Source: Fusobacterium varium (GTDB taxonomy: Bacteria; Fusobacteriota; Fusobacteriia; Fusobacteriales; Fusobacteriaceae). Taken from it: a stretch of DNA of 64,000 nucleotides. Below, piece after piece: positions 51,888 to 52,937 of this stretch (positions are counted from its first letter, which is position 1; each line of letters begins with the position of its first letter). The stretch covers positions 1,674,001-1,738,000 of the forward strand of contig LR134390.1 of assembly GCA_900637705.1 (NCBI GenBank), in the 5' to 3' direction. The notes beneath the pieces were generated by a model that saw only the letters and a list, made by a program, of their open reading frames with translations, was not told where the DNA came from and did no database searches. A program made the position numbers and the translations under genes.

Positions 51888-52937
51888 TTATCCTACTTTC
51901 TTTTTTCTTTCCAAATATTTTTTTAATACTATGTATAAAGTTTCTGTTCTAGCCATTACCTGTGCTATATTGTTACCGTATTTCTCTATAGCTAATTTTA
52001 AAGCCTCCTGCTCTATACATCTCTTTTCCTGTTCTGTAAGAGCTTCAAAAACCTTTTTAAGATTCTCTTTTTCCTCTATTGCCCTATCTCTCTGCTCCTT
52101 ATTTTTAAGATTGCTTTCTATTGCTTCTTTTGCCTTTTTCTCTGCTTTAGTCTTTCCAGTATTATAAGCCTTTTCTTCTATAACCCAGTTTTCTTTCAAA
52201 GCCTTATATATAGCTCCTTCATTCCAGTTTTTAGCTGGAGCTATTGTTAAGACTGTTTTAATTCTTTCTAAGTCTATATGTTTGGAATAAACAAGGTCCA
52301 TAATGTTTTTACAAGTGCCTATACTTATCCCATGCATTTGTAGAGTAGATTTTATTTGTCTTATTTTTTCTTTTTCTAAAATTTCTAAAGAACTACTACT
52401 ATTTTCTTTTTCTGGAATTTCCTCTATCTTATTTTTACTTTCTAAGTTAGTAGTAGTTCTTTCTAAGTTATTCTTATTATAGTTATTCTTACTAGCGTAC
52501 AGGTTTTCTGTACTACTGTTGGTACAGACCTCTGTACTAATGGTAGTACAATCTTCTGTACTTCTGTCAGTACAACTTTCTGTACTAGTACAATCTTCTG
52601 TACTTCTGACCCTTAGATAATAAATGCTGCTTGAACTAAAACATCTTACTTTATCAATTAGATCAACTTTTTCTAAATCTTTTATATTATTTGATACAGT
52701 TGTTTTACTGTTGCATTTTAAATCTTCCATAAGCTCATCATAGGAATATTTAATATAAACTTCTCCTTTTTTATCTATCCAATTATTTCTGGCAGATAAT
52801 CTAGTCCTTTCATACATCAATACGTAAGTTTTAAAAGCCCCTATGGATATTTTTCCTTCAATTAACAAGTCCATAAGCCATTTAGGTACTTGATAATACA
52901 ACATACTATCTAAATCATTAACTTTTATACTTCTCAT
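51888..52937 (-). CDS. Phage replication initiator (RepA-N/DnaD-like) with iteron tract
   Basis: The ATG at 52937 follows AAAGGAGGTAGAC; a longer frame to 52964 would run through that site. About 349 residues. The N-terminal 105 residues fit a winged-helix initiator (ISIGAFKTYVLMYERTRLSA, then YDELMEDLKCNSKTTVSNNI). Residues about 105-150 form a repeat-rich linker (STEDCT-like units, 8-residue period), whose DNA is a candidate origin. The C-terminal part (KNIMDLVYSKHIDLERIKTV and on) resembles DnaD/DnaB-loader C-terminal helices. It would bind the origin and load the helicase. Confidence 0.78.
   Translation of the reverse strand: MRSIKVNDLDSMLYYQVPKWLMDLLIEGKISIGAFKTYVLMYERTRLSARNNWIDKKGEVYIKYSYDELMEDLKCNSKTTVSNNIKDLEKVDLIDKVRCFSSSSIYYLRVRSTEDCTSTESCTDRSTEDCTTISTEVCTNSSTENLYASKNNYNKNNLERTTTNLESKNKIEEIPEKENSSSSLEILEKEKIRQIKSTLQMHGISIGTCKNIMDLVYSKHIDLERIKTVLTIAPAKNWNEGAIYKALKENWVIEEKAYNTGKTKAEKKAKEAIESNLKNKEQRDRAIEEKENLKKVFEALTEQEKRCIEQEALKLAIEKYGNNIAQVMARTETLYIVLKKYLERKKKVG
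52507..52604. other. Candidate replication origin: iterons inside the initiator gene
   Basis: TCTGTACT occurs five times at 52507, 52531, 52555, 52579 and 52597, that is with spacing 24, 24, 24 and 18. An extremely AT-rich stretch (about 52400-52495) lies beside it. Iterons next to an AT-rich unwinding element within the initiator gene is the lambda O arrangement. Confidence 0.65.

Follow-up and report, generated by a model that had tools for sequence, protein, structure and literature searches.

Initiator genes of the RepA_N kind, which carry the replication origin within rep, are known from plasmids of the Firmicutes. In pSK41, the N-terminal domain (NTD) of the initiator binds four Rep boxes in the middle of rep, and the corresponding stretch of the protein is a dispensable, replaceable linker (PMC5703833); RepA_N iterons are inverted repeats that converge on an A tract (PMC7145576). 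We found that a replication initiator gene in a stretch of 64,000 nt of the Fusobacterium varium genome (GenBank accession number LR134390.1, positions 1,674,001 to 1,738,000; this whole stretch is referred to as the window, and all coordinates are given in its numbering) probably contains the in-gene origin of a Fusobacteriaceae prophage, working in the RepA_N manner, together with an ACT/AGT hairpin that is a real nucleic-acid element. The gene is as follows.

51888 to 52964, minus strand: replication initiator gene, 358 residues, with a RepA_N winged-helix NTD, a linker encoding the putative origin, and a helical C-terminal domain (CTD), here CTD-A.

The NTD matched the Pfam family RepA_N (E 1.3e-14; 54.3 bits, cut-off 30), and the initiator also matched PHROG 7882 (phrog_7882, DnaD-like helicase loader; E 5.5e-20) and the RepA NTDs of staphylococcal plasmids (PDB 4pta, 4pql, 5kbj and 4pt7; E 7e-9 to 7e-8), the match to 4pta (E 7e-9) covering residues 22-117. 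The first residues of the pSK41 rep gene agree with the alignment of chain 4pta, and the same gene contains TGTCAAAAGGAC every 23 bp, read in shifting frames. The initiator thus probably represents the RepA_N kind, itself already known, in a prophage, and has the origin within rep. It resembles the RepA_N replicons (pSK41, pTZ2162; PF06970) in having a homologous NTD, semi-palindromic A-centred iterons located centrally in rep, a genus-restricted CTD and exchangeable modules as in pPR9. It differs in that those replicons are Firmicutes plasmids, whereas this one is a Fusobacteriaceae prophage, and in that its CTD has no detectable similarity to that of pSK41 and the ACT/AGT hairpin was not seen in pSK41 rep. 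The RepA_N initiator of the PLE satellite of Vibrio cholerae is similar in its fold, in its iterons, whose inverted sub-repeats converge on an A tract, and in belonging to a mobile phage-related element, but the PLE iterons are non-coding and the PLE origin needs phage ICP1 (PMC7145576).

The first-pass annotation of the window had called this a lambda-O-like origin. The likeness holds for the layout, as lambda also has 18-bp iterons inside the initiator gene, between the DNA-binding and C-terminal parts and with an AT-rich neighbour (NC_001416 annotation). It is not supported for the protein family: the best matches were RepA_N and PHROG 7882 with no O-like PHROG among them, no lambda O homologue was found by any profile match, and no sequence homology to lambda O was found. 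Furthermore, lambda O is without ACTACT/AGTAGT runs and is followed by the loader P, whereas no recognised loader lies next to the window initiator.

Five repeats spaced 24, 24, 24 and 18 bp, encoding STEDCT-like peptide repeats, had been reported within the gene, and this was correct: on the plus strand, TCTGTACT starts at 52507, 52531, 52555, 52579 and 52597, inside the minus-strand open reading frame 51888-52964, and on the coding (minus) strand AGTACAGA occurs five times at spacings of 18, 24, 24 and 24 bp. Absent from the earlier description were the inverted repeat 52387-52401/52448-52462 and the dyad symmetry of each iteron. Specifically, each AGTACAGA copy closes off an 18-bp dyad, AGTACA-N6-TGTACT, present in four N6 copies and a fifth with N7, and the iterons are semi-palindromes around an A-rich centre (AGTACA-GAAGAT/GAAAGT-TGTACT). 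The five dyads (52496-52604) sit between the NTD and CTD coding parts and run into an AT-rich block.

52587 to 52604, minus strand: iteron 1, AGTACAGAAGATTGTACT.
52569 to 52586, minus strand: iteron 2, AGTACAGAAAGTTGTACT.
52545 to 52562, minus strand: iteron 3, AGTACAGAAGATTGTACT.
52521 to 52538, minus strand: iteron 4, AGTACAGAGGTCTGTACC.
52496 to 52514, minus strand: iteron 5, AGTACAGAAAACCTGTACG, with a 7-nt centre, running into the AT-rich block.
52463 to 52495, minus strand: AT-rich block, a repeated AATAAGAATAAC unit (SKNNYNKNN), possible unwinding region.

With up to two mismatches allowed, the dyad pattern had 8 matches in the window against 2.4 +/- 1.65 expected, and at least 8 were obtained in 0 of 100 shuffles. 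The exact dyad AGTACAGAANNTTGTACT occurs three times in the 3.3-Mb genome, all within the initiator gene; the reversed control gave 0 occurrences in the same genome. Codon-preserving shuffles of the gene produced four perfect dyads in 2 of 2000 cases; a plain 8-mer count was not significant by such shuffles, which are dominated by poly-A words, so that this count is uninformative. The AT-rich tract reported beside the repeats is also real (79% AT, against 61% in the iterons), and its GCTARTAAGAATAAC core is also seen in RepA_N relatives whose NTD identity is as low as about 40%. In L006 (374-446) and L007 (L numbers denote our loci), the AT-rich block is expanded: five 15-bp units, TAATAAGAATAACTA (NKNNY repeats), stand in tandem next to a short CTD, after which comes an AAA+ loader.

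Relatives in which the CTD had been exchanged (L004, L010/L061, L011/L088 and L029/L064) were compared with those in which the NTD had been exchanged (L009/L038, L028/L051 and L013/L053). As the first-pass annotation had expected of an origin, the iterons change with the N-terminal DNA-binding domain, being kept on CTD exchange and altered on NTD exchange. For example, L004, with a 100% identical NTD and a different CTD, has the same dyads (seven copies), as do L061, L064 and L088, with NTDs 57-71% identical and other CTDs; L038, L051 and L053, which combine the CTD type of the window with an unrelated NTD, have quite different repeats (CCTACATTTGATGTACC type). In addition, L063 (NTD 67% identical) has TAGTCTAGAA repeats and L005 has AGTCTAGAA-type sites. 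These exchanges support the view that the initiator gene contains binding sites for its own product in the form of these repeats, which follow the NTD and not the CTD. No relative with the same peptide repeat over scrambled DNA was seen; the reverse was seen in L061, where one dyad is in another reading frame (VVQKTC in place of STENC), and it is therefore the DNA, not the peptide, that was kept. The peptide repeat as the selected feature was rejected, because L061 reads the repeat in another frame and the 3' arm of the hairpin described below is read as SSS or VVV.

Other RepA_N relatives have A-centred linker dyads of their own, namely AGTCGAAAACGTCGAC (L082/L083), GTACTAAAAATAGTAC (L075), TTGTGTAAATCACAA (L071) and GTGTAGAAAGTACAC (a Streptococcus phage). 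Repeat spacings among the relatives are 18, 24, 42, 23 and 25 bp, which does not support the earlier suggestion that spacing is more conserved than the protein; where spacings are multiples of 3, the reading frame accounts for this. Nor do the sites lie on one helix face, as had been supposed, since a spacing of 24 bp corresponds to about 2.3 helical turns and one of 18 bp to about 1.7, neither being a whole number, and the relatives vary. Perfect 24-bp iterons, GGGAACTATTATAAGTTCCGAAAA, were also observed in the initiator gene of Fusobacterium phage phiHugo (L098), in which the next protein is annotated as DnaA (AAA+).

Downstream of the iterons, between the AT-rich block and the CTD coding part, lies a hairpin with the core (ACT)3...(AGT)3.

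52448 to 52462, minus strand: hairpin 5' arm, AAAGAACTACTACTA.
52402 to 52447, minus strand: hairpin loop, 46 nt, 76% AT.
52387 to 52401, minus strand: hairpin 3' arm, TAGTAGTAGTTCTTT, a perfect 15-bp complement of the 5' arm.

Folding of 52380-52470 gave -19.6 kcal/mol (z -4.4) as RNA and -10.2 (z -3.2) as DNA. The same layout is present in genes that share only CTD-A and have several unrelated N-termini; judged from these sequences, the hairpin goes with the CTD side and survives replacement of the NTD. In 24 CTD-A genes, ACT is used for 69 of the 72 Thr codons of the 5' run (background 49%), and in the 3' run the first Ser codons are AGT, while GGT makes up 8 of the 9 Gly codons (background 20%). 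The loop in CTD-A genes is 3 to 57 nt long. Compensatory stems were found in L054 (ACCACCACT with AGTGGTGGT), in L004 (GATGATGA with TCATCATC, the Ser codons changing from AGT to TCA) and in L117 (AACCACT with AGTGGTT), while L045, L052 and L058 have G.T/G.U-type stems (ACTACTACT/AGTGGTGGT) in the coding sense and L082 has the reversed order, AGC-AGT-AGC ... ACT-ACT-ACT-GCT. The arms of one gene pair better with each other than with those of other genes (p 0.0025 with L004 included, 0.041 when it is left out, and 0.018 when near relatives are left out as well), and the base pairs flanking the triplet runs are gene-matched in 34 genes (just inside, p 0.004; just outside, p 0.018); for the 8-bp stem of L004, codon shuffling gave only a marginal result (p 0.054). 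That the hairpin is conserved as nucleic acid is shown by the invariant codons, the compensatory changes, the changed frames and the protein-blind recovery given below. No description of an ACT/AGT hairpin was found in the open-access literature. Downstream of the hairpin-bearing initiators of L053, L082, L179 and L187 are ParA-like genes (NNKGGVGKSWITLQLAH), suggesting plasmid-like maintenance.

The hairpin was also searched for as DNA, ignoring protein. In 98 Fusobacteriota genomes, the pattern ACTACTACTA-N28..57-AGTAGTAGT was found at 16 distinct places, 15 of them in initiator genes and one (L185) intergenic, and the same pattern read backwards was found at 0 places. Twelve of the 16 were CTD-A genes known already; L179, L184 and L187 are initiator-like and carry the element where the CTD-A genes have it, between the two domains; their C-terminal domains had been missed by the protein search. 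In the viral collection there were 104 matches, of which 80 are listed, as are 80 for each control scan. About 24 loci among the 80 listed (including three near-duplicates) are phage initiator-like genes, many of them unrelated. Among those scanned, L197, L200, L201, L204, L218, L249, L255, L265 and L266, and more weakly L241, have PHROG replication-initiation, O-like or DnaD-like matches; others, for example L207, L209, L217, L220, L245, L250, L254 and L260, were called initiators by judgement, because they share the layout and have a winged-helix N-terminus and a linker with repeated motifs. The arms are read as Thr...Ser in thirteen of these viral initiators, Thr...Val in ten and Leu...Ser in one; as the 3' arm is read in different frames (SSS or VVV), it is therefore the nucleic acid, not the peptide, that is conserved. 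In L209, L254 and L260 the hairpin has a copy of that phage's repeat on either side, and in L241 (20 bp) and L260 the stem reaches far past the triplets. The mirror order AGT...ACT was found in about four initiators among the 80 matches listed (L302, L322, L328 and possibly L361), the rest being mostly Ser/Thr-rich structural proteins, and an ACC/GGT stem of the same length was found in no recognisable initiator among the 80 listed. It follows from these two controls that sequence and order matter, beyond pairing, and the idea that a hairpin of any sequence would serve was rejected on the ACC/GGT scan.

Non-hairpin initiators of the RepA_N and related types often have a PF01695 AAA+ helicase loader immediately after them (confirmed by Pfam in L004, L006, L070, L097, L118 and L119, and by Walker A in others); DnaB (L075) and a Toprim primase (L062) were also found there. 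An AAA+ loader follows 0 of 22 hairpin genes versus 14 of 26 others (Fisher p 2e-5, relatedness uncorrected). A second swap pair points the same way: L119 combines the N-terminus and repeats of L038 with another C-terminus, lacks the hairpin and has an AAA+ loader. At the hairpin-bearing viral loci no adjacent large Walker-A protein was seen, and none of the PF01695 AAA+ loader and DnaB_C matches of the F. varium genome lies within the window, the lambda P family not having been scanned. A one-way rule, that a gene with the hairpin has no adjacent loader to be seen, held. Its converse, that the lack of an adjacent loader means a hairpin, fails for the relatives in Acinetobacter MD-2021a and Vibrio H20.

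We propose that the NTD, as homology and the domain swaps suggest, would bind the five dyad iterons, that the AT-rich block next to them would open and that the CTD would bring in host replication proteins. The hairpin, formed on opening of the origin, may be a structured single-strand landing site at which host helicase or primosome proteins enter, a role that we regard as possible if less than probable, and this route would serve elements without an adjacent loader gene. Among the roles considered, a single-strand entry site seems the likeliest, because the hairpin is common to initiators with otherwise unrelated domains, lies within the presumed origin and has no phage loader there. Primosome assembly sites of the phiX174 type, and other single-strand initiation hairpins, give entry to the host primosome without a phage loader, as is proposed here; the likeness is one of analogy, and the present element has a fixed ACT/AGT triplet stem and belongs to a putative in-gene double-strand origin. 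More tentatively, in-gene phage origins may have in the (ACT)n...(AGT)n hairpin a general cis element that has not been described before, common to initiators with unrelated N- and C-terminal domains, folding on the strand exposed by initiator melting and replacing the phage loader as the entry for host primosome or helicase loading.

The part of the gene downstream of the hairpin encodes the CTD.

51888 to 52386, minus strand: coding part for CTD-A, with a compact four-helix core followed by long helices in the predicted structure and a presumed role in recruiting helicase or primase.

In RepA_N replicons of the pSK41 type, the CTD has a DnaD-like fold and binds DnaG. The AlphaFold model of the CTD-A core has four helices, with a predicted local distance difference test score of 93 and a predicted template modelling score of 0.79, and a fold search gave only a weak match, to the DnaD-like structure 2zc2 (template modelling score 0.55, E 7). 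CTD-A matches are confined to Fusobacteriaceae and one metagenome-assembled genome named Clostridium, and relatives in named Cetobacterium records likewise indicate Fusobacteriaceae. Viral scans using three other CTD variants as single-protein queries found nothing.

Several points weigh against the proposed origin and its hairpin. Both the origin function and the role of the hairpin are inferred from sequence. Only about half of the genes reached significance in the codon-shuffle test of folding energy (mean z -1.58), and because the per-gene z-scores were mixed they were kept out of the main evidence. The viral initiators were called partly by eye. The lack of an adjacent loader does not predict a hairpin: the two gammaproteobacterial relatives (L539 and L541) have neither, and nor have L061, L062, L064 and L066. 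A DnaD domain in CTD-A had no firm support from Pfam, PDB profile or fold searches, and Pfam DnaB_2 was matched in just one of 16 (E 0.0042). Finally, the 705-kb plasmid of Cetobacterium somerae (G067:C2, NZ_CP092520) has a clear GC-skew minimum at about 596 kb, beside a gene for a rep-like protein of 677 residues and parA, and its RepA_N gene lies at 685 kb, 89 kb from that minimum; the RepA_N gene as the main origin of this plasmid is thus unsupported by GC skew, and it is probably a passenger.

Alternatively, the hairpin could be an mRNA element controlling expression of the initiator, through translation pausing, stability or an alternative product, rather than a DNA origin element. The RNA fold is the stronger of the two energies given above, and the stems of L045, L052 and L058 tolerate wobble in the coding sense alone; but the hairpin is in mid-gene beside the iterons and away from the ribosome site, it lies between iteron copies in L209, L254, L260, L302 and L322, and it is the ACT/AGT sequence that is kept, not any stable stem, ACC/GGT stems having been absent from recognisable initiators among the 80 matches listed. 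We therefore consider control at the mRNA level unlikely.

To a similar degree, we doubt that the arms are single-strand protein sites and not a hairpin, with (TAG)n resembling DnaA-trios on both strands and TnnT spacing resembling the DnaD recognition element of Bacillus subtilis, in which the DnaD site consists of TnnT pairs at flexible distance, opposite the DnaA-trios (PMC10201434). That element is likewise a triplet-periodic sequence at an origin (PMC10201434), TAG triplets occur in AGTAGTAGT and TnnTnnT in both the ACT and AGT runs, specificity of sequence and order would fit a protein that reads sequence, and a universal host factor would account for the spread over unrelated initiators. 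However, there are two opposed pairing arms here, and tolerated changes break the trio: in L054, L052 and L058 one strand or both no longer show the TAG or TnnT pattern, yet pairing is kept. Moreover, where stems extend beyond the triplets the two sides match within each gene, no adjacent TTATCCACA-type DnaA box was seen by inspection of 52380-52620 (241 bp), and the host genome has no DnaB_2/DnaD match. A one-mismatch scan for DnaA boxes over the whole window was at chance level and is uninformative in AT-rich DNA.

It is less probable still that the iterons are autoregulatory operators of the initiator, with the origin elsewhere; RepA_N NTDs do bind DNA, and in-gene sites could also block transcription, but no dyad copies are present at the promoter or elsewhere in the genome, and the RepA_N precedent puts the origin at such sites (PMC5703833). 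Least probable of all is that low-complexity coding of the linker, with hot spots of recombination, accounts for the repeats and triplet runs, and that domain swapping has spread them as DNA with no origin function, since, although the linker is rich in Ser, Thr and Asn and the genes are clearly mosaic, codons are invariant across CTDs only about 30% identical, stems are compensated, the same repeat DNA is read in another frame and the iterons are unique in the genome.

The setting of the putative origin is that of a prophage, because genes for the small and large terminase subunits, a sigma-like regulator, a VRR-NUC nuclease, an IrrE-like protease and a Cro-like repressor neighbour the initiator; directly downstream of it are the gene for a protein of 75 residues and then that of the VRR-NUC nuclease. 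A viral contig of 41.9 kb in IMG/VR (L002) carries the same initiator. Just upstream of the initiator start is a 31-nt inverted repeat (52975-53005/53022-53052; 84% complementary, 16-nt gap), a possible regulatory structure. A tRNA-like stretch is present at 53600-53670 (gggaatggcaggatttgaaccta...ccacttgactacattccca), at which ARAGORN calls no tRNA.

The domain swaps point to a modular origin of three parts, with iterons that go with the NTD, an AT-rich block, and a hairpin on the CTD side. One short, searchable DNA signature recurs here in the initiator genes of otherwise unrelated phages, which bears on how phages without a loader of their own bring the host helicase to the origin. If the hairpin is a helicase or primosome entry site, it would allow such origins to be found in raw sequence and would provide a defined DNA with which PriA, DnaA, DnaG and the initiator may be tested.
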